Assembly (NCBI RefSeq): GCF_018417635.1
Contig: NZ_CP071007.1
Span: 3,782,501 to 3,846,500, forward strand
From: Pseudomonas sp. SORT22
GTDB lineage: Bacteria > Pseudomonadota > Gammaproteobacteria > Pseudomonadales > Pseudomonadaceae
Length of the DNA stretch: 64,000 nucleotides
Reading direction: 5' to 3'
This document shows, piece by piece, positions 93-36,657 of this stretch. The notes under the pieces were generated by a model that ran no database searches, had not been told where the DNA came from, and saw nothing but the letters and a program-made list of their open reading frames with translations. Positions within the stretch are counted from its first letter, which is position 1. Each line of letters starts with the position of its first letter. A program made the translations under genes and the position numbers.

Positions 93-111
93 CTTCGTCC
101 AAACGGACTAG
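93..111 (-). promoter_or_regulatory. Steroid-locus operator, site 1
   Basis: On the minus strand this reads CTAGTCC-GTTT-GGACGAAG, one mismatch from the consensus CTAGTCC-N4-GGACGATG. CTAGTC, a possible -10, starts 19 bp downstream. It would serve the gene starting at position 25. It lies 12 bp beyond the esterase stop codon. Confidence 0.65.
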
Positions 112-122
112 GCCGCCGCCAT

Positions 123-1049
123 TCAGCCCAGCGCCCGGCGCAGGTCGGCTGCGGCCCCGGCCAGGGCCAGAGCGGCGCCCTCGACAAACGCGCTCATGCT
201 GATAAAGCCATGCACCATGCCCTCGCAACGCTCCAGGCGGATGGCCACACCTGCCTGGTGCAAACGTTGGGCAAAGGCTTCGCCTTCGTCGCGCAATGGG
301 TCGTACTCGGCGGTGATCAGGGTGGTGGCGGGTAAACCCTCCAGTGACTCGGCGAGCAGCGGCGAGGCCAATGGCTCCTCGACCTGCTCGGGCTGTTGCA
401 GGTAGCTGCGCCAGAACCAGGCCATCATCGCCCGCGACAACAGATACCCTTCGCCATACACCTGGTACGACGGGGTGTCGCAGCGGCCATCGGTGACCGG
501 GTAGAACAGGCACTGGTAGCGAATCTGCGGGCCCTGGCGCTCTGCGGCCAGGCGGCTGACGGCGATCGCCAGGTTGGCCCCGGCGCTGTCGCCGGCCACG
601 GCCAGGCGGCTGCCGTCGACGCCCAGGCTGGCGGCATGTTCGACCAGCCAGCAGGTGGCGGCATAGCAATCGAGCGGCGCCGCCGGAAAGCGCGCCTCCG
701 GTGCCAGCCGGTAGGCCACCGACACCACCACCGCGCCAGTGGCGCTGGCCAGTGCCCGGCACAGATGGTCATGGGTATCGAGGGTGCCGATGACAAAACC
801 GCCGCCGTGGAAGAACACCAGCAGCGCCAGGTTGTCTTGCGCCAGCGGCCGGTACAGGCGGGCATCCAGCTCGCCAGCGGCGCCCGCCACGCGCAGCTCA
901 CGCACTTCGGCCATCTGCGCGCCAGGGATCGGCGGCAACAGGTGGTCGGCATATTGCCGATACTGCACGGCATCGAGCCGGTGGTAGTCGGGCTCCCCCT
1001 GGACGCTGAACTGTTCGAGCACGGCGGCGATCTGTTTATCGAGCGGCAT
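123..1049 (-). CDS. Alpha/beta hydrolase, HSL-type esterase
   Basis: This 308-residue protein belongs to the hormone-sensitive-lipase family of esterases. The oxyanion-hole motif HGGG is at residues 81-84, the nucleophile motif GDSAG puts Ser at 155, and Asp250 (EYDPLRDEG) and His280 (MVHGF) complete the triad. No signal peptide is seen, so it is probably cytoplasmic. It is the second gene of a two-gene minus-strand unit: its first 14 bases overlap the end of the upstream SDR. By context it may hydrolyse a steroid ester or a lactone formed during degradation, but the substrate is inferred and a general carboxylesterase role cannot be excluded. Confidence 0.85.
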   Translation of the reverse strand: MPLDKQIAAVLEQFSVQGEPDYHRLDAVQYRQYADHLLPPIPGAQMAEVRELRVAGAAGELDARLYRPLAQDNLALLVFFHGGGFVIGTLDTHDHLCRALASATGAVVVSVAYRLAPEARFPAAPLDCYAATCWLVEHAASLGVDGSRLAVAGDSAGANLAIAVSRLAAERQGPQIRYQCLFYPVTDGRCDTPSYQVYGEGYLLSRAMMAWFWRSYLQQPEQVEEPLASPLLAESLEGLPATTLITAEYDPLRDEGEAFAQRLHQAGVAIRLERCEGMVHGFISMSAFVEGAALALAGAAADLRRALG

Positions 1050-1872
1050 GGGCGTCTCCTTCGGCGATCATCTGGAACTGCGGGTTGGTTTCTTCAAGGA
1101 TGCTGCGCAGGCGCAGCTCCAGGGCGGGCTTGAAGTCTTTGTGCGGGAAGATCCAGAAGCGCCGCTCGGCCAGCGCGGCGAATACCTGGGCGGCCAGCTC
1201 GCGGGGCGTCATGCCCTGGCGAATGTGCTCGTCGAGCACGGCGCTGAAAGTGGCGTCGGCCTGCTCGCGGGCCTGGTTGGAGGCCATGATGTCACTGGCC
1301 ACCGGCCCCGGGCAGAGCACCGACACCGAGACCTGCGCGCCGAGCATGTCCAGCTCGTACTTGAGGGTTTCGGATAACGCCACCACCGCCTGCTTGGTGA
1401 CGTTGTAGGGCGCCATCAACGGACTGCTGAGCAAGCCGGCGAGCGACGCGGTGTTGATCACCTGGGCCGGGTGGCCCTGCTCGAGCATCAGCGGCACAAA
1501 GCTGCGGATGCCATTGATCACCCCTTGCAGGTTGATGGCGAGCATGCGCTGCCACTGCTCGTGGCTGATCTGCCAGCTGTAGCCGGTCTGCATCACCCCG
1601 GCATTGTTGAACAGCAGGTCGACCCGCTGAAAATGCGCCAGGGCGACATCGCGCAGGCGCTCGACCTGGGCCACATCGCTGACGTCGGTCAGCTGGGCAA
1701 TGGCCTGCACGCCCTGGCCTTGCAGTTGCGCGCTCAGCGCCTGCAAACCCGGGCCATCGACATCGGCCAGTACCAGCTGCATGCCCAGCCCTGCCGCATG
1801 CTCGGCCAGACCCCGGCCGATCCCGCTGGCGGCGCCGGTAATCACCGCCACCCGCCCCTGCTCATTGCTCAT
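1036..1872 (-). CDS. Short-chain dehydrogenase/reductase (SDR)
   Basis: A classical SDR of 278 residues. The nucleotide-binding glycine motif is GAASGIG at residues 13-19, NNAG is at 89-92, and the catalytic pair is Tyr156-Lys160 (YNVTK). The open frame extends far upstream, but the ATG at 1872 has a good ribosome site (AGGAGA) and an N-terminus typical of the family, so I chose it. It opens a minus-strand unit with the esterase and shares a divergent control region, with a palindromic operator, with kshA. It probably oxidises or reduces a steroid hydroxyl or keto group; the position is not predictable from sequence. Confidence 0.85.
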   Translation of the reverse strand: MSNEQGRVAVITGAASGIGRGLAEHAAGLGMQLVLADVDGPGLQALSAQLQGQGVQAIAQLTDVSDVAQVERLRDVALAHFQRVDLLFNNAGVMQTGYSWQISHEQWQRMLAINLQGVINGIRSFVPLMLEQGHPAQVINTASLAGLLSSPLMAPYNVTKQAVVALSETLKYELDMLGAQVSVSVLCPGPVASDIMASNQAREQADATFSAVLDEHIRQGMTPRELAAQVFAALAERRFWIFPHKDFKPALELRLRSILEETNPQFQMIAEGDAHAAR

Positions 1873-1929
1873 TGCGTTCTCCTGCTGCTGGCTTGATTGC
1901 GCCAGTAGAGCCGTCAGCCCACGGCCGGC

Positions 1930-1949
1930 CATCGTCCGTTCAGACGATG
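1930..1949. promoter_or_regulatory. Steroid-locus operator, site 2 (perfect palindrome)
   Basis: CATCGTC-CGTTCA-GACGATG is a perfect inverted repeat with 7-bp arms. Both strands match the GGACGATG half of the consensus. It lies 58 bp from the SDR start (minus) and 68 bp from the kshA start (plus). -10-like hexamers occur 19 bp away on each side (CTCTAC on minus, CAGAAT on plus), so one site could drive both promoters. Confidence 0.7.
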
Positions 1950-2016
1950 CCTGCTGGTACAGGGGCGGCAGAATCACTCGCACAGCACACCCCGTGATAC
2001 CCCGGAGAACAATAAG

Positions 2017-3060
2017 ATGAGCACCCTGCACCGCATTGAAGCCAAGCTGCTGGAAGACCGCTACGCCCGTGGTTGGCACTGCCTGGGCCTGGCCGCGCAC
2101 TACCGCGACGGCAAGGCCCACCGCCTGGACGTGTTTGGCACCCGCCTGGTGGCGTTCCAGGGTGAAGACGGCCAGCTGAACATTCTCGACGGCTTTTGCC
2201 CGCACATGGGCGCCGACCTGAGCACCGGCTGCATCGAAGGCAACTCGATCCGCTGCCCGTTCCACAGCTGGCGCTGGGGCGCCGATGGCGTGTGCGACGA
2301 CATTCCCTACGCCAAGCGCATTCCACCGCGGGCCAAGGTCAAGCGCTGGCCGATCATGGAAGAAAACCAGCTGCTGTTCGTCTGGAACGACCCGCAAGGC
2401 AACCCGCCGATTGCCGAGCAGGCGATCCCGCGCATCGACGCCTGCTTCAGTGACCAGTGGGCCGCCTGGGAAGTGGCCGAACTGCAGATCGACACCAACT
2501 GCCGCGAGCTGATCGACAACGTCGCCGACATGGCCCACTTCGGCACCGTGCATGGCGCGCCGGTGGCCGAGTTCAGCAACGTCTTCGCAGGCCACCTGGC
2601 CACCCAGGTCATGCGTGCGCGCAGCGAACGGCTGTCTGGCGACAGCGAGCTGAGCACGGTGGCCACCTACTTCGGCCCGGCCTACCAGATCACCGAAATG
2701 ACCGGGGCGATGAACGGCCAGCCGATCCATTCGATCCTGCTCAACTGCCATGTGCCGATCGACCTCAACAGCTTCACCCTGCGCTACGGCGTGCTGGTGA
2801 AAAAGATCCCCGGCCTGAGCGAGGAGCAGAACCAGGCCATGGCCAAGGCCTACGTGCAGCAGGCCCAGTCGGCTTTCTACGAAGACGTGGCGATCTGGCA
2901 CAGCAAGACCCGGGTCGACAACCCGCTGCTGTGCGACGGCGACGGCCCGGTGTACCAGCTGCGGCGCTGGTATGAGCAGTTCTATACCGACGTCGACCTG
3001 CTGCCTGCCGAAACCGCCGACAGCAAGCGTTTCGTGGTGCTTGACGGCGAGCGCGCCTGA
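2017..3060 (+). CDS. kshA: 3-ketosteroid 9alpha-hydroxylase, oxygenase component
   Basis: KshA is the Rieske non-haem iron oxygenase that, with reductase KshB, hydroxylates C9 of 3-ketosteroids. After delta1-dehydrogenation this causes ring B to open, giving the 9,10-secosteroid 3-HSA. The 347 residues carry a Rieske cluster (Cys61-x-His63 and Cys80-x2-His83) and a mononuclear iron site (His174, His179, Asp290 in the ring-hydroxylase arrangement DMAHFGTVH / FYEDV). The Rieske neighbourhood RCPFHSWRWG and the C-terminal RRWYEQFY are as I recall for actinobacterial KshA. It is a single-gene unit divergent from the SDR. Its partner kshB lies at 30.2 kb. Confidence 0.93.
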   Translation: MSTLHRIEAKLLEDRYARGWHCLGLAAHYRDGKAHRLDVFGTRLVAFQGEDGQLNILDGFCPHMGADLSTGCIEGNSIRCPFHSWRWGADGVCDDIPYAKRIPPRAKVKRWPIMEENQLLFVWNDPQGNPPIAEQAIPRIDACFSDQWAAWEVAELQIDTNCRELIDNVADMAHFGTVHGAPVAEFSNVFAGHLATQVMRARSERLSGDSELSTVATYFGPAYQITEMTGAMNGQPIHSILLNCHVPIDLNSFTLRYGVLVKKIPGLSEEQNQAMAKAYVQQAQSAFYEDVAIWHSKTRVDNPLLCDGDGPVYQLRRWYEQFYTDVDLLPAETADSKRFVVLDGERA

Positions 3061-3077
3061 GCCTTGCCGAGCGCTTT

Positions 3078-3102
3078 GGACAGGCGTGCGCTACGCCTGT
3101 CC
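3078..3102. repeat. Perfect inverted repeat between kshA and the LuxR-type gene
   Basis: Ten-base arms GGACAGGCGT and ACGCCTGTCC flank a 5-nt loop, 18 bp after the kshA stop codon. No T-run follows, so it is a weak intrinsic terminator at best. It could also be a regulator site for the downstream gene, which has no copy of the 19-bp operator. Confidence 0.55.
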
Positions 3103-3191
3103 GGATGCGTGTACGGAGCGTTGCGTGCACGCGTTAACGCCAACTATTCTCTGCCATCGCCAACGCTAATAATAAAAAATGGTAGTTCCCT

Positions 3192-4322
3192 ATGCAGCCG
3201 TGCCTCACCCTCGAGTCATTCAGCGACTTGCTCGGTCACCTCTATCAAGGGCCGATGGAGAACATTCCCTGGGTCACCTTCCTCAACCAGCTCAACCTGC
3301 AGCTACAGAGCAAATACGTCACCTTCATTCTACGCCCGCCCAGCGCCCACGTTGACGGCCTGATGGTTAACACCACCGGCAGTTCGAGCGAAACCACCGC
3401 CTCGTACAACAAGCACTTCTTTGCCCTCGACCCGTTCGTCGACCTGCCCAACCGCGAAGTGGTGACCCTCGCCAGCTACGTCTCCAACGACGAGCTGTTG
3501 CAATCGGAGTTCTACAAGAACTTTCTCGAGCCGGTGGACGTGTTCCATATTCTCGGGGCCGACATCAATACCGGCGACGGCGCCCAGTGCCGTATCCGCA
3601 TCAGCCGCGGGCGCGATGAGCAGGCCTTCGGCGACCAGGAAAAAACCCTGCTGGCGCGCTTCATCCCGCACCTGGAACGCTCGATCAAACTGCACATGCA
3701 GCTCAACCGCATCGAGACCGAACGCAACCTCTACGCCGGCGCCGTCGACCAGCTGGCGGTGGGCACCATCATCCTCGACGAAACCGGCAAGGTGCTGCAG
3801 ACCAACCAGGTTGCCGAGCGGCTGATCCAGGAAAAGGACGGCATCAAGCTGGTCAATGACGGCCTGCAGGTTGGCACCGCGCGCGACACCCAGGAGTTCC
3901 GCCGGCTGGTCAAGCAATCGCTGCTGTCGCAAAAAAGCAGCAACCCCTCGGTGGTCGAGGCCATGCGCGTACAACGCCCGTCCGGGCGCGCCGACCTTGG
4001 CATCATCGTGCGCTCGGTGCCGCTGTCGACCTGGAGCGAAGGCAAGCAATGCCCGACCGTGGTGATCTTCATCAGCGACCCCGAGCAGCAATCCTCGGCG
4101 CCGCAGGAGATCGTCCGGGCGCTGTTCGATTTCACCCCGGCCGAAACCCAGCTGGCGATGCTGCTGGCCAACGGCCTGACCCTGGACGAAGCCTCGGAGG
4201 AACTGGGCATCAGCCGCAACACTTCGCGGGCGCACCTGCGTTCGACCTTTTCCAAGACCGGCGTGACCCGCCAGACCATGCTCGTGCGCTTGATCTTGCG
4301 CAGCGTGGCGACCCTCGGCTGA
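3192..4322 (+). CDS. LuxR-family transcriptional regulator, TeiR/TesR-like
   Basis: A 376-residue protein with a C-terminal LuxR-type helix-turn-helix at roughly residues 310-370 (FTPAETQLAMLLANGLTLDEAS, then SRNTSRAHLRSTFSKTGV). The N-terminal 300 residues form a sensory region without an obvious receiver or autoinducer domain. Size, architecture and location match TeiR/TesR, the LuxR-type activator of testosterone degradation in Comamonas testosteroni; this is from recalled knowledge, not an alignment. It is the only regulator gene in the 40-kb locus, so it is the likely activator acting on the repeated operator. The ribosome site before ATG 3192 is weak; the next in-frame Met is at 3255. 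Confidence 0.85.
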   Translation: MQPCLTLESFSDLLGHLYQGPMENIPWVTFLNQLNLQLQSKYVTFILRPPSAHVDGLMVNTTGSSSETTASYNKHFFALDPFVDLPNREVVTLASYVSNDELLQSEFYKNFLEPVDVFHILGADINTGDGAQCRIRISRGRDEQAFGDQEKTLLARFIPHLERSIKLHMQLNRIETERNLYAGAVDQLAVGTIILDETGKVLQTNQVAERLIQEKDGIKLVNDGLQVGTARDTQEFRRLVKQSLLSQKSSNPSVVEAMRVQRPSGRADLGIIVRSVPLSTWSEGKQCPTVVIFISDPEQQSSAPQEIVRALFDFTPAETQLAMLLANGLTLDEASEELGISRNTSRAHLRSTFSKTGVTRQTMLVRLILRSVATLG

Positions 4323-4332
4323 AGCACCCGCC

Positions 4333-4351
4333 CTCGTCCGCTTGGACGATG
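4333..4351 (+). promoter_or_regulatory. Steroid-locus operator, site 3
   Basis: CTCGTCC-GCTT-GGACGATG, one mismatch from consensus, begins 10 bp after the regulator's stop codon. It ends 59 bp before the Nudix gene start. A -10-like CACAGT begins 20 bp downstream at 4372. The Nudix gene therefore appears to have its own regulated promoter. Confidence 0.7.
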
Positions 4352-4409
4352 GCGGGTTGCCGGGCACAGCGCACAGTGCAGGTATCCACCCGCCGCCAGG
4401 GGCCTGCAC

Positions 4410-4958
4410 ATGCGCAACTGTCCGACCATCCTCAAGACCGAACTGCTGGCCCAAAGCAGTCATTTCCAGATCGAAGCCCTGCACCTGCAGTTCAGCAACG
4501 GCCAGCGGCGCATCTACGAACGCTTGCGCGGCACCGGCTACCGCTCGGTGATGCTGGTGGCGATGCCCGACCCCGAGCACGTGCTGCTGGTGCGCGAGTA
4601 TGCGGTGGGCGTAGAGGGCACCATCCTCGGCCTGCCCAAGGGCGGTGCCGAGGCGCATGAAAGCTACCTGCAGGCGGCCCAGCGCGAGCTGTGCGAAGAA
4701 GTCGGCCTGAGGGCGGCGCGGCTGACCGAGCTGGGCGAACTGACCTTGGCGCCCGGGCATTTGTGTCATCGTTATCGGGTGGTGCTGGCCCAGGACCTGA
4801 GCCTCTGTGCTCTGCAAGGTGACGAGCCGGAGCCGCTGGAATGCATCAAGGTGCCGCTGGCGCAGATCCCGGCACGGGTGGCCAGTGGCGAGTTGCATGA
4901 GGCCCGGGCCATTGCCGCGTTGTTCATGGCCATGGGAGCGCTGGCTCAACCGCGATGA
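4410..4958 (+). CDS. nudE: Nudix hydrolase, NudE-like
   Basis: A 182-residue Nudix hydrolase with a complete Nudix box at residues 78-100: G-x5-E, then REL at 92-94, Glu96-Glu97 and Gly99. Length and N-terminus resemble NudE, which cleaves ADP-ribose and related adenosine dinucleotides in E. coli. In Pseudomonas a housekeeping nudE is expected elsewhere, so this looks like a second copy recruited into the steroid locus with its own operator. A role in disposing of nucleotide or CoA by-products is possible but unproven. It is followed by a pair of inverted REP elements. Confidence 0.8.
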   Translation: MRNCPTILKTELLAQSSHFQIEALHLQFSNGQRRIYERLRGTGYRSVMLVAMPDPEHVLLVREYAVGVEGTILGLPKGGAEAHESYLQAAQRELCEEVGLRAARLTELGELTLAPGHLCHRYRVVLAQDLSLCALQGDEPEPLECIKVPLAQIPARVASGELHEARAIAALFMAMGALAQPR

Positions 4959-4972
4959 GGCCGCTGCACTCG

Positions 4973-5037
4973 ATCGCGGGTCAAGCCCGCTCCCACAGAA
5001 TTGTGCGGGACCTGTGGGAGCGGGCTTGACCCGCGAT
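4973..5037. repeat. Inverted pair of P. putida-type REP elements
   Basis: Two REP copies (ATCGCGGGTCAAGCCCGCTC and its complement) face each other around a short spacer with the sequence ATTGTGCGGG. Together they can form a long hairpin between the convergent Nudix gene and hsaF. This may serve as a bidirectional transcript end. Confidence 0.8.
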
Positions 5038-5053
5038 GAAGCCAGCGCGCACC

Positions 5054-6088: not shown

Positions 6089-6101
6089 GGCAGTTCTCCA
6101 C

Positions 6102-7010: not shown

Positions 7011-7028
7011 TCGCTTGAACCTCGCACG

Positions 7029-7820: not shown

Positions 7821-8644
7821 GCCCGTGCCTCCCCAAGGAACGCCAGGCATTCACGGTTGAACAGCTCGCGGTGCTCGACCATCACCCAGTGTCCGCATTC
7901 GCTGAGCAGCACAAAGCGGATCCGCCTGCAGGCTGCAAGCAGGGTCTGCGCGCCGGAGGCCGGGCAGAACTTGTCGTTGATACCCCAAAAACCAAGAATC
8001 GGGCATTGCAGTTCAGGCAAGCGTGAGGTCAGGTTCGGCACCTGCATGCTGGTCAGCACGCAGGCCGGTTGCTGGCCCACCACTGCCACGCGTTCGGCCA
8101 CGGTTTCATCGCTGATCAGCGCCGGGTCGAACAACTGCAGGCTGAGCAGGCGGCGCATGCCGGCGGCATCGTTGAGCTCGCCGTTGGCAAAGGCCGCGCC
8201 CATCTTCTGGATGCCTTCCATTTGCAGGTAGTACTGCTCCTTGTCCATCAGCCCACCGGGGGCCATCAGCACCAGGCGGCTGACCCGCCCAGGCTGGTCC
8301 AGCGCCAGCTTGATGGCAATGGCGCCACCCAGGGAATTGCCGACCAGCACGCAGCGCTGGATATCCAGGGCATCGAGCAGGCCGCTGAGGGCGCTGACGA
8401 AAAAGTCCAGGCTGTAGACCGTTTGCGGCTTGCTCGAAGCGCCGTAGCCGGGCAGGTCGGGGACGATCACCCGGTAGCCGGCCGCGGCGAATGCCGGGTA
8501 GTTCTGTTTGAAGTTGCTGTGCCCGCTGGCACCCGGGCCGCTGCCGTGGATGAACACCACCGCCTCGCCCGTGCCAACGTCCTGGTAATGCAGCTGCAGA
8601 CCATCGGCCAGCGTTACCACGTGCCCTTGCGCGGATGCGCCCAT
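7817..8644 (-). CDS. hsaD: Meta-cleavage product hydrolase (4,9-DSHA hydrolase)
   Basis: HsaD is the C-C bond hydrolase acting on 4,9-DSHA, the HsaC product. It splits ring A fragments (2-hydroxyhexadienoate) from the HIP skeleton. The 275-residue alpha/beta hydrolase has HGSGPGASG at 33-41 as the oxyanion region, nucleophile Ser104 in GNSLGG, Asp224 and His252 (ECGHW). It opens a minus-strand operon (hsaD-E-G-F) whose promoter region carries operator site 4, divergent from the SDR at 8799. Confidence 0.93.
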   Translation of the reverse strand: MGASAQGHVVTLADGLQLHYQDVGTGEAVVFIHGSGPGASGHSNFKQNYPAFAAAGYRVIVPDLPGYGASSKPQTVYSLDFFVSALSGLLDALDIQRCVLVGNSLGGAIAIKLALDQPGRVSRLVLMAPGGLMDKEQYYLQMEGIQKMGAAFANGELNDAAGMRRLLSLQLFDPALISDETVAERVAVVGQQPACVLTSMQVPNLTSRLPELQCPILGFWGINDKFCPASGAQTLLAACRRIRFVLLSECGHWVMVEHRELFNRECLAFLGEARA

Positions 8645-8702: not shown

Positions 8703-8721
8703 CATCGTCCGTCAGGACTAC
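8703..8721 (-). promoter_or_regulatory. Steroid-locus operator, site 4
   Basis: The minus strand reads GTAGTCC-TGAC-GGACGATG, 59 bp before the hsaD start. GAATAA follows 19 bp downstream as a likely -10. It shares its outermost base (8721) with site 5, so the two sites are back to back. Confidence 0.75.
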
Positions 8722-8739
8722 TAGTCCCTTCGGACGTTG
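8721..8739 (+). promoter_or_regulatory. Steroid-locus operator, site 5
   Basis: CTAGTCC-CTTC-GGACGTTG, one mismatch from consensus, ends 60 bp before the SDR start at 8799. CTAGCA, a -10-like hexamer, begins 19 bp downstream at 8759. Confidence 0.75.
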
Positions 8740-8798: not shown

Positions 8799-9572
8799 AT
8801 GCACGACCCTATGGATTTTCGCGGCAAGGTGGTACTGGTGACCGGTGGTGGCAAGGGTGTGGGCCGCGGCATCAGCCGGCGCTTTCTTGAATGCGGCGCC
8901 GAGGTGGTGATCTGCGGGCGCCAGGCGCCTGCGACACTGCCGGCCAGCGGCGGGCGCGAGGCGCTGTTCCTGGCCTGCGATGTGCGTGACATCGAGCAGG
9001 CCCAGCAGATGATGACGGCTATAGTCGAGCGCTTCGGGCGCCTCGATGTACTGGTCAACAACGCCGGCGGCGCGCCCTATGCCGAAGCCGCCAGCGCCTC
9101 GCCGCGCTTCAGCGAATCGATCATCCGCCTCAACCTGCTGGCGCCGCTGAACCTCAGCCAGCTGGCCAACCGCATCATGCAGGCCCAGGCCGAGGGCGGC
9201 AGCATCATCAACATCTGCAGCGTCAGCGCCACCCGCCCTTCCCCCGGCACCGCCGCCTACGGCGCGGCCAAGGCCGGCTTGCTCAACCTGAGCCGCTCGC
9301 TGGCGGTGGAGTGGGCACCCAAGGTTCGGGTCAACGCTGTCACCGCCGGGCTGATCCTCACCGAGCAGGCGGCCCTGCACTATGGCGATGAAAGCGACCT
9401 GGCCGAGGTGGCCGCGACCATCCCCCTGCAACGCCTGGCCAGCCCCGAAGACATTGGCGACAGTTGCCTGTACCTGGCCTCATCGCTGGCCCGTTATGTC
9501 AGTGGCGCCGACATTGCCGTGCATGGCGGTGGCGAGCGCCCGGCGTTCCTCGACGCGGCAAAATCGCCGTAA
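8799..9572 (+). CDS. SDR family oxidoreductase, Rv3549c-like
   Basis: A 257-residue classical SDR: glycine motif in VTGGGKGVGRG (residues 15-24), NNAG at 87-90, catalytic Tyr154-Lys158. Its overall text (QAQAEGGSIINICSVSATRP, VEWAPKVRVNAV) closely resembles what I recall of mycobacterial Rv3549c in the cholesterol C/D-ring cluster. That suggests a beta-oxidation-type 3-hydroxyacyl dehydrogenase step on a HIP-CoA intermediate, though its reaction is not established. It is a single-gene unit with its own operator, convergent with the thiolase operon. An alternative start is at 8811. Confidence 0.87.
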   Translation: MHDPMDFRGKVVLVTGGGKGVGRGISRRFLECGAEVVICGRQAPATLPASGGREALFLACDVRDIEQAQQMMTAIVERFGRLDVLVNNAGGAPYAEAASASPRFSESIIRLNLLAPLNLSQLANRIMQAQAEGGSIINICSVSATRPSPGTAAYGAAKAGLLNLSRSLAVEWAPKVRVNAVTAGLILTEQAALHYGDESDLAEVAATIPLQRLASPEDIGDSCLYLASSLARYVSGADIAVHGGGERPAFLDAAKSP

Positions 9573-9585
9573 GCGCTCCCCCTGC

Positions 9586-9618
9586 GCAAGGCCACACCCT
9601 GGCGGGTGTGAGCCTTGC
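9586..9618. terminator. Imperfect hairpin between convergent units
   Basis: GCAAGGC-CACACCC pairs with GGGTGTG-AGCCTTGC around a 4-nt loop with one bulged base. It lies between the plus-strand SDR and the ksi remnant/thiolase unit. It has no strong T-run, so its role as terminator is only likely. Confidence 0.5.
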
Positions 9619-9625
9619 TTGCGCG

Positions 9626-9712
9626 CTATTGCGGCTCGCGCACGCTGAGGTTGACCTCGCTCCAGTAGGCTTGCATGGTCTGGATCCGGCCGTGCTCATC
9701 AAAACGGTTCAT
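9626..9712 (-). pseudogene. ksi: 3' remnant of ketosteroid delta5-isomerase (ksi)
   Basis: Immediately after the thiolase stop codon (2 bases on), the minus strand reads ATG-Asn-Arg and then 25 residues beginning FDEHGRIQTMQAYW and ending SEVNLSVREPQ-stop. From memory this equals the C-terminus of the 131-residue P. putida delta5-3-ketosteroid isomerase. The first 105 or so codons are missing, including catalytic Tyr16, Asp40 and Asp103, so it cannot be active. The upstream thiolase is complete, so the deletion joined the region behind the thiolase to the end of ksi. Whether the 28-codon ORF is still translated is unknown. Confidence 0.85.
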
Positions 9713-9714
9713 TC

Positions 9715-10923
9715 TCAAGCCACCTCGAACAATGCAGCGGCACCCATGCCGCCGCCAATACACATGCTCACCACCACGTAACGTACGCCGCGTCGCTTGC
9801 CCTCGATCAAGGCGTGGCCAACCATGCGCGCCCCCGACATGCCGAACGGGTGACCGATGGCAATCGCCCCGCCATTGACGTTCAGGCGCTGGTTGTCGAT
9901 GCCTAAGGTATCGCGGCAGTACAGGACCTGGCTGGCGAAGGCTTCGTTGAGTTCCCACAGGCCGATGTCCTCGACTTTCAGGCCGTGGCGCTTGAGCAGT
10001 TTGGGAATCGCGTAGACCGGGCCGATACCCATCTCGTCGGCATTGCAACCGGCCACCGCCAGGCCGCGATAGATGCCCAGCGGCGCCAGGCCGCGCTGCT
10101 CGGCCAGCTTGGCGTTCATCAATACCGAGGCCGAAGCGCCGTCAGACAGCTGCGAGGCGTTGCCGGCGGTAATGAAGCGCCCGGCCTCGGTCCACTGCCC
10201 GCCCTGCCACACCGGCTCCAGTGCAGCGAGGCTGGCCAGGCTGGTGTCGGCGCGATTGCATTCGTCGTGCAGCAGGGTCACGGTCTCGTAACGGGTCTCG
10301 CCGCTGGCCTTGTCGATGATCGCCTTGCGCGTGCTCAGCGGCGCCAGCTCCAGGTCGAACAGGCCCGCGGCTTGCGCCTGGGCAGTGCGCAACTGGCTTT
10401 GCAGGGCATAGGCATCCTGCTCGTGGCGCGTCACGCCATAGCGCTGGGCGACGATCTCGCCGGTTTCGATCATCGGGATATAGGCCTGCGGGTCGCGCTC
10501 AAGCACGGCGCCGGACTGGTTGCGGTAGAGGTTCTTGTGCTTGTTCTGCACCAGCGAGATCGACTCCAGGCCGCCGGCGACGGCGATGTCGATTTCGTTG
10601 CAGATAATGCCCTTGGCCGCCAGGGCAATGCTCATCAGCCCCGAGGCGCATTGGCGCTCCACGGCCATCCCGGCTACCGACGGCGGCAGGCCGCCGGCAA
10701 TCGCACACAAGCGCCCGAGGTTGTAGGCCTGGGTGCCCTGCTGGGCGGCGGCGCCGATGATCACATCGTCGACCTGCCCGGCCTCGATCCCCGCGCGCCG
10801 CACGGCCTCGCGCACCACATGGCCGCCGAGGGCCGGCGCTTCGGTGTCGTTGAAGGCACCGCGAAAGGCCTTGCCGATCGGCGTGCGCGCGGTTGAAACA
10901 ATAACGGCTTCATTCATGTTCAC
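9715..10923 (-). CDS. Thiolase (acetyl-CoA acyltransferase)
   Basis: A full-length 402-residue thiolase. The acyl-accepting Cys92 lies in ERQCASG, and the C-terminal active-site blocks [10 protein letters not shown] and CIGGGMG are intact. It is a second thiolase besides fadA6 and is the last intact gene of a unit reading fadE-fadE30-ipdF-maoC-thiolase. It probably cleaves a beta-ketoacyl-CoA formed during HIP or residual-chain beta-oxidation; which one cannot be told from sequence. Its 3' end abuts the ksi remnant. Confidence 0.88.
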
Positions 10924-12201: not shown

Positions 12202-13389
12202 TCAGGGACGCAGGCGCGGTTCTTTGGGCATGCCCAGGGCGCGCTCGGCGATGATGTTGCGCTGGATCTCGTTGCTGCCGCCGTACAGGGTGTCGGCGCG
12301 GCTGAACAGGTACAGCGATTGCAGTCGGGTCAGCTGATAGGGCGCGGCCTCGAGCAGTTCGGCGTCGGGGCCGAGCACGTCCATGGCCAGCTTGCCGAGG
12401 TTGGCGTGCCAGCTGGACCAGAACAGCTTGTAGATGGTCGCCTCCTTGCGCAGCGCGCCGTCCTGGGCGCCGGAGAGCATGCGCAGCGAGTTGAAGCGCA
12501 TGATCCGCAAGCCGCACCAGGCTTCGGCCAGGCGCTGGCGCAGCAGCGGGTCGCGGGCTGCGCCGTTGGCCTTGGCGATGGCGATGATCTCGTTCAGTTC
12601 GTTGGCAAACTGCATCTGCTGGCCGAGGGTCGAAACCCCGCGCTCAAAACCGAGCAAGGCCATGGCGATCTTCCAGCCGTCGCCAGGCGACCCGATGAGG
12701 TTGGCGGCGTCGGTGCGGGCGTTGTCGAAGAACACTTCGTTGAATTCCGAAGTGCCGGTCATCTGCTCGATCGGCCGCACGCTGATGCCGGCCTGGGCCA
12801 TCGGCACCAGCAGGAACGACAGGCCGCGATGGCCGACGCTGCCAGGCTCGGTACGGGCGATCACAAAGCACCAGTCCGACTCATGGGCCAGCGAAGTCCA
12901 GACCTTCTGGCCGTTGATCACCCAGCTGCCGCCCTCAAGGCTGGCGCGGGTCTTGACGTTGGCAAGGTCAGAGCCTGCGCCCGGTTCCGAGTAGCCCTGG
13001 CACCAGAACTGCGTGCCGCTGACGATAGCGGGCAGCAGGCGGCGCTTTTGCTCGTCGTTGCCGAAGGCGGCGATGGTCGGCCCGGCCAGGCCTTCGCCGA
13101 TATGGCCCATGCGCCCGGGGCCGCCAGCACGGGCGTATTCTTCGTGGAAGATCACCTGCTGGCTGATCGACAGGCCCCGGCCACCATGCTCCGGCGCCCA
13201 GCCGACGCAAGTCCAGCGGCCCTCGGCCAGCTTGCGCTCCCAGGCTTTGCGCTGCTGCGGGAACATGTGCTCATCACCCGGGCCGCCGCGAAAACGCAGG
13301 GGCTCGAACTCGCCGCAGAGGTTGGCGGCCAGCCAGCCGGCGACCTCCTGGCGAAACTGCTCGTCCTGTTCACTGAAACTGAGCTTCAT
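12202..13389 (-). CDS. fadE30: Acyl-CoA dehydrogenase, FadE30-like
   Basis: A 395-residue acyl-CoA dehydrogenase. Features include the FAD-region WCQGYSEPGAGSDLA, VINGQKVWTSLAH, FERGVSTLGQQ and the C-terminal YGGSNEIQRNIIAERALG. The pattern closely resembles FadE30, which dehydrogenates the propionyl side chain of HIP-CoA in mycobacteria. I chose ATG 13389, which overlaps the upstream dehydrogenase stop as ATGA; the open frame extends further without a good start. The tight coupling to a second, less conserved FadE suggests a heteromeric enzyme. Confidence 0.88.
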   Translation of the reverse strand: MKLSFSEQDEQFRQEVAGWLAANLCGEFEPLRFRGGPGDEHMFPQQRKAWERKLAEGRWTCVGWAPEHGGRGLSISQQVIFHEEYARAGGPGRMGHIGEGLAGPTIAAFGNDEQKRRLLPAIVSGTQFWCQGYSEPGAGSDLANVKTRASLEGGSWVINGQKVWTSLAHESDWCFVIARTEPGSVGHRGLSFLLVPMAQAGISVRPIEQMTGTSEFNEVFFDNARTDAANLIGSPGDGWKIAMALLGFERGVSTLGQQMQFANELNEIIAIAKANGAARDPLLRQRLAEAWCGLRIMRFNSLRMLSGAQDGALRKEATIYKLFWSSWHANLGKLAMDVLGPDAELLEAAPYQLTRLQSLYLFSRADTLYGGSNEIQRNIIAERALGMPKEPRLRP

Positions 13390-14558: not shown

Positions 14559-14636
14559 CGCGGCGCCTTTTACTCGTCTGGCGGAAGTACCGGCGAGTGT
14601 GGCCAGATGCGCGGGCGGCAGAATCGTTTGCCTCGC

Positions 14637-14655
14637 CTAGTCCGGATGGCCGATG
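14637..14655 (+). promoter_or_regulatory. Steroid-locus operator, site 6 (reversed)
   Basis: CTAGTCC-GGAT-GGCCGATG lies 79 bp upstream of the minus-strand fadE unit, but the GATG end points away from that gene. No AT-rich -10 element is seen at the usual 19-20 bp on either side. It may still bind the regulator because the core GTCC-N4-GGMC is nearly symmetric. Confidence 0.5.
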
Positions 14656-14672
14656 CGCCTGGGGTGCGGCCG

Positions 14673-14713
14673 ATCGCGGGTCAAGTCGGGTCGCCGTACC
14701 GCCGCTCCCACAG
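14673..14713. repeat. Degenerate REP element
   Basis: The two halves of the local REP consensus (ATCGCGGGTCAAG and CGCTCCCACAG) are present but separated by about 17 bases of unrelated sequence. It looks like a decayed or interrupted copy. Confidence 0.55.
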
Positions 14714-14743
14714 GATTGGCAGTGCCTTCAAGACGGGTAACGC

Positions 14744-14777
14744 AAAAAAGCCGCGCCACCCTCACGGATGGCGCGGC
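14744..14777 (-). terminator. Rho-independent terminator of the hsaC-ipd-fad operon
   Basis: On the minus strand, 9-bp arms GCCGCGCCA / TGGCGCGGC around a 10-nt loop are followed by six T residues. It lies 25 bp after the SDR stop at 14803 and closes the long minus-strand operon that begins at hsaC. Confidence 0.85.
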
Positions 14778-14802
14778 CCGCCTAAGCGGCGCACAACCTC
14801 AA

Positions 14803-15678: not shown

Positions 15679-15708
15679 TGTCGCTCTCCCCTGTGTGGTT
15701 GCTGGCGC

Positions 15709-16857: not shown

Positions 16858-16881
16858 GCTCTACCTCAACAGGAAACAGGA

Positions 16882-17928: not shown

Positions 17929-17938
17929 GGTCTGCTCC

Positions 17939-24535: not shown

Positions 24536-24554
24536 CATCGTCTGTTGGGACTAG
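24536..24554 (-). promoter_or_regulatory. Steroid-locus operator, site 7
   Basis: The minus strand reads CTAGTCC-CAAC-AGACGATG, 64 bp before hsaC. TTGAAT starts 20 bp downstream and is a likely -10. This one site would control the ten-gene hsaC operon. Confidence 0.75.
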
Positions 24555-24613: not shown

Positions 24614-25735
24614 TCACTGCTTGCGAAAATGCGGAATCACCTTCTCGCCGATGTTGCGCAGGGTCTCCAGCTGCGCCCATTGCGGCACCGTGCCCATCTG
24701 GCAGATGAACAGGATCTCGTCGGCGCCGGCATCAATCAGGCGTTGCACGTAACCGATGCAGTCCTCGACCGTGCCGTAGGCATGGTTGGGGTTCATCATC
24801 GCCATGGTCGGGTCGGAGAAGTCGACGCTGACTTCCTCGGAGGCAAAGCGCGACTTGATCACTGCCTGGCCGTTGCCGTCGACGTAGGTGTCGTCTTTCC
24901 ACTTTTGCGGGTCCGGCCGCTCGCCGCCGCCGTACCAGTAGCCCAGCGACTCCATGAAGTAGCGCTGGCCACGGATGCCGATGCGCCGCGCCAGTTCGTT
25001 GTCGTCGAGGACGATGGCCGGGCACAGCGCGGCGATGTGGCGGTTGGGGCGAAAGCCGACCTGCTGCTTGGCGTCACGGTTGTCCCAGGCCTGGTGGTAC
25101 ACCTCGACCTTCTTGGCGATTTCCTCCGGGCCGCCGAAACCCAGCACCAGCGCGCCCATGCCACGCCCGCCGGCGTTCTTCAGCGATTCGGTGTTGGTGC
25201 AGGCCAGGTACATCGGCGGGTGCGGGTCCTGGTACGGCTTGGGATGGATCGGCCGCTTGGGGATCTGCACGAAGTCGCCGTGGTGCTCGATCTCGTCCTG
25301 GACGAAGATTTTCGGGATCAGGTACATGGCTTCATCGATCTGCGGCTGCAGGGTCGCCAGGTCGTAGCCGAAGGTGCCGGCCTCCTGCTGGGTACCGCCC
25401 TTGCCCACGCCGAAATGCACCCGGCCCTTGGACAGCAGGTCGAGGGTAGCGATGCGCTCGGCGACCTTGACCGGGTGGTTCATCGCCGGCGGCAGGCACA
25501 CCACGCCATGGCCGATGCCGATGCGCTCGGTCTTGCCGGCGACAAAGGCGAGCATGGTTTCTGGCGCCGACATGTGCGAGTAGTTGCTCAGGGCGGTGTG
25601 TTCCACGCACCAGAAGGTGTCGAAACCGAGCTGGTCGGCCAGTACTGCCTGCTCGACGGTGTCATCGAAGATCTTGCGGTCGCCTTCGCGGCTGGAGTCC
25701 ACCGTCTGTGCTTCGTAAATCAATGAGAATTTCAT
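24614..25735 (-). CDS. Luciferase-like (LLM class) flavin-dependent oxidoreductase
   Basis: A 373-residue member of the bacterial luciferase superfamily: N-terminal AQTVDSSREGDRKIFDDTVEQA context, DTFWCVEHTALSNYS, the flavin-barrel piece RIGIGHGVVCLPPAMNHP, and GRVHFGVGKGGTQQEAGTFG. Members use reduced FMN (from a reductase such as HsaB) or F420; Pseudomonas lacks the usual F420 enzymes, so FMN is more likely. It sits between hsaA and hsaC, which suggests a role in ring degradation, but no such step is assigned in the actinobacterial pathway. It may be a monooxygenase for a side substrate. Function is unknown. Confidence 0.85.
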   Translation of the reverse strand: MKFSLIYEAQTVDSSREGDRKIFDDTVEQAVLADQLGFDTFWCVEHTALSNYSHMSAPETMLAFVAGKTERIGIGHGVVCLPPAMNHPVKVAERIATLDLLSKGRVHFGVGKGGTQQEAGTFGYDLATLQPQIDEAMYLIPKIFVQDEIEHHGDFVQIPKRPIHPKPYQDPHPPMYLACTNTESLKNAGGRGMGALVLGFGGPEEIAKKVEVYHQAWDNRDAKQQVGFRPNRHIAALCPAIVLDDNELARRIGIRGQRYFMESLGYWYGGGERPDPQKWKDDTYVDGNGQAVIKSRFASEEVSVDFSDPTMAMMNPNHAYGTVEDCIGYVQRLIDAGADEILFICQMGTVPQWAQLETLRNIGEKVIPHFRKQ

Positions 25736-25820: not shown

Positions 25821-25839
25821 AATCCCGCAAACGGACTAG
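25821..25839 (-). promoter_or_regulatory. Steroid-locus operator, site 8 (degenerate)
   Basis: The minus strand reads CTAGTCC-GTTT-GCGGGATT. The left half is perfect and the right half is poor. It lies 86 bp before the luciferase-like gene in the hsaA-downstream gap, and no clear -10 follows. It may be a weak or decayed site. Confidence 0.4.
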
Positions 25840-25861: not shown

Positions 25862-27046
25862 TCAGAGGAAGAAGTCGCTGCTGTCCTGGCCCATGCTCAC
25901 GCCGCCCAGGTTCCAGGCGTACTTGGCCGGGTTGTTGGCAACGTGGGCGCGGCCGGTATGAATGTCGCGAAAGGCGCGGTTGATGGCGTGGCTGCGAAAG
26001 ATCGTCGAGGCGCCGCTGTTGAACATCAGCTCGGCCACCGCCTTGGCGCACTTGTCGGCGACCAGCGCCGAGTCGTAGCGCATCTTCACCCGCGTCTGCA
26101 TGGCCAGGGCGTCGCCGGCCTCGGCGGCCTTGAGCATGAAATCGAAGTTGCGCAGCAGCACCGTGCGGCACTCGTCGACGCAGACCATGGCATTGGCCAG
26201 GGCGGTTTGCGCCGCCGGGTCCTGGAGCATCTTGCGCCCGTCATTGACCCCGACCCGGCTGCGGTTGTGCTCGACGAACAGATCGATCGCGCCCTGCAGG
26301 GCGCCAATGGCCGACGACGACACCGCGCGCACGAAGATCTGCCCGAACGGCAGGCGGAACAGCGGCGCGCTGTTGACCGCGTTGCCCGGGCTGTACTGCA
26401 TGAAACCGTCAGCAGCGCGGTGGGTGCGGTACTCCGGGACGAAGGCATCGCTCACCTGGATGTCGTGGGAGCCGGTCGCCTCCAGGCCCATGACATTCCA
26501 GTTGTCGATGATCTGGTAGTCGCTGCGCGGCACCAGGAAGGTCCGGTAGTCCGGCGCCCCGCCCGCCTCTTGCGGCGGCACCAGGGCGCCAAGGAAGGCC
26601 CACTGGCAATGCTTGCTGCCCGACGAAAAGCCCCAGCGGCCGCTGAGCTTGAAGCCACCCTCGACCCGCTCGACCTTGCCCACCGGCATATAGGACGACG
26701 AAATCAGCACGCTGGAATCCTGGCCCCAGACATCCTCGGCGGCGCGGTCGTCGAACAGCGCCAGTTGCCAGTTGTGGATGGCCACCACCCCCAGCACCCA
26801 GGCCGAGGACATGCAGCCTTCGGCGAGGGTCATCTGCACCTCGAAAAAGTCCCGTGGCTGCAGCTCGTAGCCTTGCCAGCGCGCCGGCTGAAGGATGCGG
26901 AAAAACCCGGCGTCGTGGAAATCGCGCAGGGTTTCTTCCGGTAGCTGGCCACGTTGCGCGGCATGGGCGGCACGTTCACGCAGGATCGGCACCAGCTCGC
27001 GGGCGCGCTGGGCCAGACGCTGGCGTATCAGGTCGTGATTGAGCAT
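25862..27046 (-). CDS. hsaA: 3-HSA hydroxylase, oxygenase component
   Basis: HsaA is the flavin-dependent monooxygenase (acyl-CoA dehydrogenase fold, group D) that hydroxylates 3-HSA to the catechol 3,4-DHSA, using FMNH2 from HsaB. The 394 residues show the characteristic LSGRWGFSSGSKHCQWAF, NWNVMGLEATGSHDIQV and the C-terminus INRAFRDIHTGRAHVANN. This is clearly the monooxygenase branch rather than a dehydrogenase. It is divergent from hsaB across a 218-bp control region with two operators. Confidence 0.93.
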   Translation of the reverse strand: MLNHDLIRQRLAQRARELVPILRERAAHAAQRGQLPEETLRDFHDAGFFRILQPARWQGYELQPRDFFEVQMTLAEGCMSSAWVLGVVAIHNWQLALFDDRAAEDVWGQDSSVLISSSYMPVGKVERVEGGFKLSGRWGFSSGSKHCQWAFLGALVPPQEAGGAPDYRTFLVPRSDYQIIDNWNVMGLEATGSHDIQVSDAFVPEYRTHRAADGFMQYSPGNAVNSAPLFRLPFGQIFVRAVSSSAIGALQGAIDLFVEHNRSRVGVNDGRKMLQDPAAQTALANAMVCVDECRTVLLRNFDFMLKAAEAGDALAMQTRVKMRYDSALVADKCAKAVAELMFNSGASTIFRSHAINRAFRDIHTGRAHVANNPAKYAWNLGGVSMGQDSSDFFL

Positions 27047-27147: not shown

Positions 27148-27166
27148 CATCCCTCAAACGGACCAT
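27148..27166 (-). promoter_or_regulatory. Steroid-locus operator, site 9 (degenerate)
   Basis: The minus strand reads ATGGTCC-GTTT-GAGGGATG, with several mismatches. It is supported by a TTGAAT hexamer starting exactly 20 bp downstream, the same spacing and hexamer as at hsaC. It lies 102 bp before hsaA and would imply a long leader. Confidence 0.5.
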
Positions 27167-27186: not shown

Positions 27187-27205
27187 CTAGTCCCCTCGGA
27201 CGATG
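27187..27205 (+). promoter_or_regulatory. Steroid-locus operator, site 10 (consensus)
   Basis: CTAGTCC-CCTC-GGACGATG is a perfect match to the consensus. It lies 60 bp before the hsaB start, with CAAGAA as a possible -10 starting 19 bp downstream at 27225. It would control hsaB-kst4D-HSD-kshB. Confidence 0.8.
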
Positions 27206-27780: not shown

Positions 27781-27789
27781 GGCCGGGCC

Positions 27790-30212: not shown

Positions 30213-30219
30213 GGCGACG

Positions 30220-31317: not shown

Positions 31318-31330
31318 GGGCCGGTGCCCG

Positions 31331-31349
31331 CTAGTCTCATCGGACGATC
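31331..31349 (+). promoter_or_regulatory. Steroid-locus operator, site 11
   Basis: CTAGTCT-CATC-GGACGATC has two mismatches and lies 68 bp before the SDR at 31417. TTAGAC, a good -10 match, begins 19 bp downstream at 31369. The site begins 13 bp after kshB, so the following two genes have their own promoter. Confidence 0.7.
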
Positions 31350-31416
31350 ACTGCGGCCCCGACTGCGGTTAGACTCGGCGCCAGCAGCCCCACAACAATA
31401 AGACAGAGGTTCAGTT

Positions 31417-32163
31417 ATGGCTCGTTTGCACAACAAGGTCGCCGTGGTTACCGGCGGCGCATCGGGTATCGGCCTGGCGTGCGTGCGCCGCTTCATTGCC
31501 GAGGGCGCCGAGGTCGTCGGCCTGGACATTGGCGAGGCGCCGGCGGACTTCCCCGGCCTGTTCATGAGCCTGGATGTGCGCGATGAAACCCGCGTGCAGC
31601 AGGTGATGAGCGAAGTCATCAGCCGCTTCGGGCGTATTGATGTGCTGGTCAATGCCGCCGGCGTCGCCGACCAGGGCAGCGTGACCCAGACCAGCACCGC
31701 CAACTGGCAGCGGGTGCTGGACATCAACCTCACCGGCAGCATGCTCACCAGCAAGCACGTGCTGGCGCAGATGGAGGCCCAGCGCAGCGGCTCGATCATC
31801 AACATCGGTTCGATCTTCGGCCTGCAGGGCTGCGACGGCAACGTTGCCTATAACGTCTCCAAGGGCGGCATCAACCAGCTGACCCGCTCGATGGCCATCG
31901 ACTATGGCTACGCCAACATCCGCGTCAACGGCCTGTGCCCGGGCCTGATCGAAACGCCGATGACCAGCATGGTCCGCGAACAGCAGGCATTCCACGCCTT
32001 CTTCGCTTCGCAGCACATGCTCAACCGTTCCGGGCAGCCGGACGAAGTGGCCAACGTCGCGCTGTTTCTTGCCTCTGACGAAGCGTCGTTCGTCAGCGGC
32101 CAGATGATTGCCGTGGACGGCGGTTTCTCCGCTGGCCGCCGCTTCGCCCCGCCTAGCGCCTGA
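31417..32163 (+). CDS. SDR family oxidoreductase
   Basis: A 248-residue classical SDR: glycine motif GGASGIG at 13-19, NAAG at 79-82, catalytic Tyr145 and Lys149. It is encoded 66 bp upstream of fadD3 and after its own operator. It may be a hydroxysteroid dehydrogenase acting on a ring C/D hydroxyl, or a 3-hydroxyacyl-CoA dehydrogenase. The sequence does not decide. Confidence 0.86.
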   Translation: MARLHNKVAVVTGGASGIGLACVRRFIAEGAEVVGLDIGEAPADFPGLFMSLDVRDETRVQQVMSEVISRFGRIDVLVNAAGVADQGSVTQTSTANWQRVLDINLTGSMLTSKHVLAQMEAQRSGSIINIGSIFGLQGCDGNVAYNVSKGGINQLTRSMAIDYGYANIRVNGLCPGLIETPMTSMVREQQAFHAFFASQHMLNRSGQPDEVANVALFLASDEASFVSGQMIAVDGGFSAGRRFAPPSA

Positions 32164-32229
32164 CCCGCGGTGCCGGGCAGCCTGCCCGGCGCTTTCCCTG
32201 CTCATTCATCCTCAGCCTGAGGAGGCATC

Positions 32230-33801: not shown

Positions 33802-33839
33802 GGGCTGCTGTGCAGCCCATCGCCGGCAAGGCCGGCGAT
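33802..33839. terminator. Two adjacent hairpins between convergent genes
   Basis: GGGCTGC-TGT-GCAGCCC is followed at once by ATCGCCGGC-AAG-GCCGGCGAT. Both are perfect stems located between fadD3 and the convergent SDR. No T-run follows, so they may act as weak terminators or RNA stabilisers. Confidence 0.6.
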
Positions 33840-33867
33840 CGAGCCCGAAGGGGTCGTAATCCGCCGC

Positions 33868-34746: not shown

Positions 34747-34757
34747 GGGGTGCATCC

Positions 34758-36494: not shown

Positions 36495-36588
36495 GTGCTC
36501 ACCTTGTAAAGGGCAATGGACAACAGGCCGCGCCGGCGGTCGGCCGGGGGCATTGGTCATTGATTGTTCGATGCCCGGCACGGGCCAA

Positions 36589-36607
36589 CATCGTCCGATG
36601 GGACTAG
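36589..36607 (-). promoter_or_regulatory. Steroid-locus operator, site 12 (consensus)
   Basis: The minus strand reads CTAGTCC-CATC-GGACGATG, a perfect match, 95 bp before the kstD start. GAACAA lies 19 bp downstream as a possible -10. Confidence 0.8.
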
Positions 36608-36638
36608 CGCCAGCGTCCGGCGCACGTGGCGGCATCGC

Positions 36639-36657
36639 TTAGTCCGCTTGGACGATG
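36639..36657 (+). promoter_or_regulatory. Steroid-locus operator, site 13
   Basis: TTAGTCC-GCTT-GGACGATG has one mismatch and lies 95 bp before the DUF1302 gene. CATAGT begins 20 bp downstream at 36678. With site 12 it forms a symmetric divergent control region. Confidence 0.8.

Follow-up and report, generated by a model that had tools for sequence, protein, structure and literature searches.

In Comamonas testosteroni, the steroid-degradation gene cluster includes a LuxR-type positive regulator, TeiR/TesR, that is needed for induction (PMC6678751, PMC6895838, PMC8399759; all papers are cited here from the excerpts available). TeiR has been reported as a polar membrane protein that acts via kinase activity (PMC6678751, PMC8399759), and tesR-like genes have been cited as confined to C. 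testosteroni (PMC6895838); two TeiR-like genes have been cited for Pseudomonas stutzeri Chol1 (PMC8399759). In Pseudomonas sp. SORT22, a 64-kb window (the whole stretch of DNA analysed, 64.5% G+C) of the single-contig, 5.8-Mb genome holds a comparable locus. Here, too, a LuxR-type regulator (positions 3192–4322) is encoded inside a steroid-degradation cluster, but its only match in Pfam is GerE, in apparent contrast to the kinase-acting membrane protein reported for TeiR. Spread through the same cluster are copies of a 19-bp element, CTAGTCC-N4-GGACGATG. Its fixed distance from the predicted transcription start and its co-occurrence with one regulator family, distant bacteria included, make it very probable that the regulator docks on this motif to turn the steroid pathway on.

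LuxR-type activators of steroid degradation are thus already known; the operator is without counterpart in the literature searched. Palindromic operators at steroid genes, as seen in the window, are also a feature of KstR and KstR2 of actinobacteria and of EdcR of Caenibius, which are repressors (PMC6678751, PMC8700777). KstR and KstR2 differ in being TetR-type proteins, and the palindrome of EdcR, TnnCnnTACnAnTnGTAnnGnnA, overlaps the -10 (PMC8700777). No operator for TeiR, TesR or a steroid LuxR of Pseudomonas was found in the literature searched, which lay mainly outside subscription journals (including excerpts of PMC6678751, PMC12239570, PMC6895838, PMC12882949, PMC13101464, PMC8700777 and PMC8399759), and within that coverage the remark in an earlier note on this DNA that no published description of the motif was known holds. 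For Chol1, a deletion phenotype is cited as unpublished, with no operator or regulon beside it in the excerpt (PMC8399759). The TeiR-like regulators of Pseudomonas (Stutzerimonas) stutzeri Chol1 probably belong to the same family as that of the window, a comparison made through the locus of Stutzerimonas stutzeri K1, where a 72% relative is accompanied by seven sites. In protein, genome-contig and plasmid searches, no Comamonas names appeared among the regulator matches listed (120 of 1350, 80 of 168, 25 of 244 and 120 of 1947).

When the window was searched with the motif at up to three mismatches, 14 matches were found, compared with 1.27 expected by chance and at most 4 in any of 100 shuffles. 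Eleven of these are the strong copies reported earlier (the sites of Table 1 other than 14622, 25821 and 27148), two (1931 and 4332) are reverse readings of near-palindromic copies, and the last, at 24998, looks like a chance match. A position weight matrix (PWM) built on 14 sites of this genome, 11 inside the window and 3 outside it, gives all eleven strong sites a score of at least 23.8. Next comes 25821 at 11.9, while 27148 scores below 7. These two completed the thirteen copies of the earlier note; both are more than three mismatches from the motif and keep most of the left arm, followed by a GTTT spacer and a decayed right arm. Their inclusion was right nevertheless, because they are conserved in place in relatives. 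Among the printed upstream regions of orthologues (matches of at least 55% identity whose flanks were distinct and whose upstream DNA was long enough), the luciferase-like monooxygenase gene has a site in the same place in all eight, five of them of the GTTT-spacer form or nearly so and three with CTAGTCTGATCGGATGTAT, and the hsaA-like gene has the window's form or a close variant in all six. Downstream of 36,657 no score of 9 or more was obtained in the PWM scan, in keeping with the remark that copies end at 36.7 kb.

The promoter geometry was examined in 80 luxR-bearing loci from public genomes (the best 80 of 168), where the PWM gave 337 hits, compared with 9–14 in each of five Markov shuffles. 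Removing sites at least 70% identical to a kept one over the first 45 downstream bases left 165 non-redundant sites. The pattern.A...T starts at base 21 past the site in 98 of these and at base 22 in 25, with 0–12 at other offsets from 1 to 54; column frequencies at bases 20–26 read C57-T39-A72-n-A48-A41-T72 (percent), and the aligned columns contain no -35 consensus. By convention the -10 hexamer occupies -12 to -7, and class II sites are centred at -42.5. If the base-21 hexamer is taken as -12 to -7, the centre of the palindrome comes to lie at -42.5, and the predicted geometry is that of a class II activator, with a two-fold operator near -42.5 overlapping the -35 position of a putative promoter. 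Class II placement had been proposed before and is borne out by this fixed offset, but the hexamer, said to begin 19–20 bp after the site, instead follows a 20-base spacer and starts at the 21st base. In the 17 site readings of the SORT22 genome (strong, weak and both of 1930), strict.A...T is found at base 21 in 11 and at base 20 in two, one of these being CAGAAT on the kshA side of site 1930; two readings have TTGAAT, and 1930(-), on the SDR side, and 14637(+) have TCTACT and GCGGGT, respectively, at base 21. In distant clades (27 loci, L123–L142 and L162–L168),.A...T begins at base 21 in 21 of 47 readings and at base 22 in 15, with 0–4 at other offsets from 1 to 24.

LuxR and TraR are class II activators whose lux and tra boxes are two-fold sites of about 18–20 bp at -42.5, replacing the -35. 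The window system is similar in its two-fold site at -42.5 in place of the -35, but differs in the sequence of the half-site, in an asymmetry of the arms that marks direction, in an added PAS-like part and in the absence of a Pfam autoinducer-domain match. Numerous copies that are partly palindromic and mostly intergenic might instead be a dispersed repeat of the REP (repetitive extragenic palindromic) kind with no regulatory role. This candidate was rejected on the distribution of -10 offsets; the distance to the -10 is fixed in most sites, the copies are concentrated in steroid loci, and the same promoters keep their sites while the flanks diverge, which leaves a simple repeat with a negligible probability. 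The centre at -42.5 suggests activation rather than repression. That the LuxR-type protein binds as a repressor relieved by steroid is very improbable: such a repressor of a steroid dehydrogenase has been reported in Comamonas (cited in PMC8700777), but rigid spacing at -42.5 upstream of a -10, with no -35 consensus, is typical of activator dependence. When a TeiR-like gene is deleted from P. stutzeri Chol1, cholate degradation is reportedly delayed, an activator phenotype (unpublished, cited in PMC8399759).

The direction of transcription appears to be written in the arms of the motif. A second redundancy filter kept 230 of the 337 sites for this comparison. Of the 159 sites whose left arm is TAG-type, 124 show.A...T at base 21 next to the GATG arm, compared with 2–12 at any single offset from 17 to 25 on the opposite side; the CTAG arm therefore marks the non-transcribed side. 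In symmetric sites, which have a TCG-type left arm and thus two GATG-like arms, the hexamer is at base 21 in 26 of 68 on one side and at the mirrored base 20 in 23 of 68 on the other. Three sites fit neither class. A polarity test based on start codons, counting open reading frames (ORFs) of at least 90 residues that open 35–220 bases off on either side, gave no separation of symmetric from asymmetric sites (62 and 58 of 68 versus 128 and 128 of 159) and was uninformative because GC-rich DNA is full of long chance ORFs; polarity was therefore judged from the -10 hexamers.

In the window, GATG mostly points toward the gene, as had been claimed, with two exceptions. Site 1930/1931 is symmetric and bidirectional, as are its orthologues in six other loci (L147, L149, L155, L157, L158 and L160). 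Site 14637(+) faces away from its gene and aims at the 3' end of a convergent one; the ORF at 14653–17976(+), of 1107 residues, has no Pfam or NCBIfam match, and the opposite strand encodes an SDR, a thiolase and an acyl-CoA dehydrogenase, so that 14637(+) fronts no recognisable gene. Read on the minus strand, however, its CTAG opens an overlapping degenerate site, CTAGGCGAGGCAAACGATT, at 14622–14640, followed by exactly 20 bases and then CACACT, with the start of the acyl-CoA dehydrogenase gene 63 bases past the site. L147, L149 and L158 share this overlapping arrangement and have CAAACT, CAGACT and CAAACT, respectively, at base 21, and L152 has a nearly canonical single copy in the place of the cryptic site, followed by CACACT. 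No such site accompanies the remaining five places listed for this gene, all of them 27–29% paralogues. From the site end to the likely start codon, the distances in the window are 57, 67, 58, 58, 59, 63 (the cryptic site), 63, 85, 101, 59, 67, 94 and 94 bases. The usual distance of 58–68 or 95 given earlier is thus nearly right, with nine of the thirteen at 57–68, two at 94 and the others at 85 and 101.

The regulator appears to have three parts: a GAF/autoinducer-domain-like part (residues 1–178), a PAS-like part (about 190–300) and a GerE helix-turn-helix (303–376). Pfam matches only the last (PF00196 at 314–367, 24.2 bits against a cut-off of 23.5), with no autoinducer-domain match and, at E 1e-3, no kinase domain; a weak NCBIfam match to the histidine kinase PnpS (18.9 bits against a cut-off of 400, residues 150–254 to model 28–127) lies over the PAS-like part. 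Its neighbours are KshA, HsaA–HsaG-like and KstD-like genes by domain content, on which all labels of the hsa, kst and ksh type used here are based; the HsaD model match scores under its cut-off. Of the loci fetched, that of Pseudomonas wadenswilerensis comes from the closest relative with a name, its LuxR being 98% identical. Taking geometry and co-occurrence together, it is highly probable that the motif is the operator of this TeiR-like regulator, acting by class II activation of a steroid regulon.

Is the LuxR-type protein the binder, or does it travel with the steroid genes while another regulator occupies the sites? In a genus sample of 199 genomes (LuxR threshold E 1e-30, motif threshold one mismatch), the LuxR is present in 28, of which 26 have at least four motif copies, while all 171 LuxR-negative genomes have at most three (mean 0.35; Fisher p 1.4e-30, relatedness ignored). 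In G149, a LuxR-positive exception, the LuxR match is only 26% identical. Because luxR and the steroid genes share their inheritance within the genus, co-occurrence alone cannot separate the two, and several steroid-gene regulators of Comamonas are named in the discussion of PMC8700777. A class-wide test was therefore made on 274 gammaproteobacterial genomes, with a stricter pattern at zero mismatches. Seven copies were found in G422, six in the SORT22 genome, one in each of 11 others and none in 261; the regulator profile, searched afterwards (E 1e-40 or better), matched only G422 (two genes) and the SORT22 genome, so that repeated motif and regulator are paired one to one. G422 belongs to a different family. 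Behind five of its seven sites lie homologues of hsaA, hsaC, an SDR and DUF1329 (twice); behind the remaining two, the DNA fetched shows no homologue of the window's genes. Six of the seven have.A...T at base 21.

The link also extends across more distant taxa. Outside the class, sites lie near 46–48% relatives of the regulator on Caballeronia and Cupriavidus plasmids, and in Sphingobium, with a 37% regulator, one is found 54 bases before an annotated 3-ketosteroid-9-alpha-monooxygenase gene; within the class, Vibrio alfacsensis has sites near a 35% relative. Conversely, no site is present at a Novosphingobium locus whose steroid genes are accompanied by a LuxR of only 29% identity. In 66 of the 80 loci, luxR has a site no more than 350 bases away. 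LuxR-type dimers use an 18-base two-fold site at -42.5, which is what the motif provides. Binding by another regulator, with the LuxR as a co-travelling gene, is thus improbable, and the LuxR-type protein, named as the natural binder in the earlier note, is favoured by sequence association, with its presence and the motif load agreeing within the genus and across the class. The steroid regulon proposed there is supported as well.

A second regulator branch, about 36–41% identical, is found in loci L046–L062 at 1–3 copies per genome; these genomes are other Pseudomonas with 4–9 motif copies, G042 excepted. The V. alfacsensis plasmid locus has a beta-oxidation-rich cluster with three operator-like sites, one of them symmetric between divergent genes. 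In G148, a kshA homologue (G148:C42:368654-369691) has one in-frame TGA in a steroid cluster that otherwise looks intact.

In the genome as a whole (5.8 Mb), the motif at up to one mismatch is matched 10 times, nine times within the window cluster and once at C1:3,145,440, beside BaiE-like genes; frequent matches away from steroid genes, which would have told against a steroid regulon, are not found. The 17-base pattern TAGTCY-N4-GGACGAT has seven exact matches, five in the window and two in an unlinked locus, and allowing one mismatch adds 13, six of them outside both loci, with 12 in all for the reversed control. These six, and eight genome matches to the motif at two mismatches outside both loci, were counted as background. 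Because such pattern searches are blind to degenerate sites like 25821, 27148 and 14622, the genome may hold more weak sites in other places. The sequence CTCGTCCTTGAGGACGATG occurs once per genome in many Pseudomonas, LuxR-negative (G079, G125, G138) or LuxR-positive (G021, G093, G148), and probably represents conserved coding DNA that is a main contributor to the background.

The regulon as first described, confined to the window cluster, stands for that cluster but has to be extended by three sites at 3.145–3.147 Mb of the contig, about 636 kb away. In this unlinked locus (L031), the sites 8441(-) and 9828(-) each face a SnoaL_4 gene, and 8491(+) faces an EthD-domain gene (L031:7953-9830), so that every one of the three genes has its own operator copy. 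Compared with solved structures, the SnoaL_4 proteins match the bile acid 7-alpha-dehydratase BaiE (9291-9830, E 1e-24; 7953-8384, E 3e-13). Their SnoaL/NTF2 class also includes the C-ring dehydratase SteC of Comamonas (PMC13101464). The EthD gene is present in four of 13 LuxR-positive genomes examined, the SORT22 genome included, and the conservation of this BaiE-like arm is partial.

Several observations weigh against the LuxR-type regulator as an activator acting through the motif. The -42.5 position indicates activation but is no proof of it. In the genus sample, each of the 27 genomes with kshA also has the LuxR, and within the genus the motif could in principle follow the steroid cluster instead of the regulator. 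G042 has two 37–40% relatives and no copy at up to one mismatch, with one weaker site (PWM 22.6) beside luxR. Loci L132, L138 and L142 have a 48–50% relative and no site scoring at least 14, the other Nevskiaceae-type loci (L133–L137, L139–L141) have only one or two sites each, and the plasmid loci L164 (42% relative) and L167 (29%) have no site above 12.7 and 9.0, respectively; L168, with a 45% relative, has one site, scoring 18.2. Lastly, the EthD-gene site is kept in only two of the four genomes with the gene (SORT22 and G193, L146:2271, at a score of at least 9 in the fetched flanks).

Behind site 93, just left of the window, lies a small protein of 57 residues with a hydrophobic N-terminus (L032:10354-10524, minus strand). 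An ORF of 51–59 residues with an N-terminal hydrophobic segment and mostly an LLP/LMP end stands behind a GAAG/GAGG-type site in 39 of 42 loci (L112, L119 and L140 were set aside by hand, no such small ORF being seen), starting 60–68 bases past the site in 36 of the 39. The median pairwise ratio of nonsynonymous to synonymous substitution (dN/dS) is 0.19 over 343 non-independent pairs (dS 0.1–1.2), with 91% of pairs below 1, and by this measure the small protein is under purifying selection. Three representatives have no match in Pfam or NCBIfam, and the window's form had two entries in a search of 5.8 billion proteins, a search of low sensitivity for such short queries.

The sites, their spacing, polarity and conservation, and their co-occurrence with the regulator family are established by sequence. 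From these we infer a mechanism in which a dimer of the regulator, with an N-terminal sensor of GAF/autoinducer-binding fold, a PAS-like middle and a GerE helix-turn-helix, would bind TAGTCC-N4-GGACGATG centred at -42.5. The bound dimer would cover the -35 region and activate, rather than repress, sigma-70 promoters in which a -10 but not a -35 can be recognised, with GGACGATG toward the promoter and CTAGTCC away from it, and the symmetric copy would drive both divergent promoters, of the SDR and kshA. Predicted targets include A/B-ring and C/D-ring steroid degradation, the DUF1302/DUF1329 pair, the small membrane-anchored protein and, about 636 kb away, the BaiE-like steroid dehydratases. Induction probably depends on a steroid or a CoA-thioester intermediate. 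Presumably, kshA and luxR form one operon, which would result in positive feedback; a promoter and terminator scan of 1850–4450 found neither on the + strand, hence none between the two genes, which fits an operon but proves little.

Table 1. Candidate operators and associated genes in the window (hexamer positions are counted from the end of the site)
Feature	Position	Strand	Evidence
Operator CTAGTCC-N4-GGACGAAG, before the 57-residue small protein left of the window	93..111	-	-10 TAGTCT at base 21
Near-perfect symmetric operator between divergent SDR (-) and kshA (+)	1930..1949	.	PWM 23.9 (-), 21.7 (+); both arms GATG-type
SDR-family dehydrogenase	1036..1872	-	PF00106; start 57 bases past site
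kshA, 3-ketosteroid 9alpha-hydroxylase oxygenase	2017..3060	+	PF19298, PF00355; start 67 bases past site
LuxR-type regulator, proposed binder	3192..4322	+	Domain content; co-occurrence with motif
Operator before NudE-like Nudix gene	4333..4351	+	1 mismatch; -10 CACAGT at base 21
NudE-like ADP-compound hydrolase	4410..4958	+	NF008736, 206.1 bits against cut-off 169
Operator before hsaD-hsaE-hsaF-hsaG-like run	8703..8721	-	-10 AATAAT at base 21
Operator before SDR gene 8799-9572	8721..8739	+	-10 TAGCAT at base 21
Cryptic operator CTAGGCGAGGCAAACGATT of acyl-CoA dehydrogenase gene 13386-14558	14622..14640	-	-10 CACACT at base 21
Strong copy facing away from its gene, CTAG shared with cryptic site	14637..14655	+	GATG side lacks.A...T at base 21
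Operator before hsaC-like extradiol dioxygenase and CoA-transferase run	24536..24554	-	TTGAAT at base 21
Degenerate operator (left arm intact) before luciferase-like monooxygenase 24614-25735	25821..25839	-	GAGCAT at base 21
Degenerate operator before hsaA-like gene 25862-27046	27148..27166	-	TTGAAT at base 21
Perfect-match operator before hsaB-like flavin reductase (start 27265) and kstD/SDR/kshB-like run	27187..27205	+	AAGAAT at base 21
Operator before SDR 31417-32163 and AMP-ligase	31331..31349	+	TAGACT at base 21
Perfect-match operator before kstD-like gene (likely start 36494)	36589..36607	-	AACAAT at base 21
Operator before DUF1302/DUF1329 pair	36639..36657	+	CATAGT at base 21

The NudE-like Nudix gene lies directly behind the regulator with an operator of its own, and tblastn places it in 46 cases among the loci of relatives. 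The start codons of the hsaB-like, kstD-like and EthD genes likely need correcting.

What the motif offers is a complete and testable regulon model, with a predicted operator, start sites, a target list, a polarity rule and orthologues, and it is this completeness, together with the depth of conservation, that makes it of interest. It also serves as a genome-search tool for steroid degraders and for unlinked pathway genes, having singled out one genome of 274 besides that of SORT22; it is a candidate promoter element for steroid biosensors; and it opens a new small protein to study. Read jointly, the results may mean considerably more, although the chances for and against this are evenly balanced. 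The code TAGTCY-N4-RGACGATG at -42.5, with its arm-written direction and one three-part LuxR family, would then define a steroid/bile-acid regulon common to Gamma-, Beta- and Alphaproteobacteria, on chromosomes and plasmids alike. The code alone would reveal unlinked pathway genes and unannotated small proteins, including the membrane-anchored ones of 51–59 residues, mostly with an LLP/LMP end, and TeiR of Comamonas would be a directly DNA-binding class II activator, not a kinase-relay protein.

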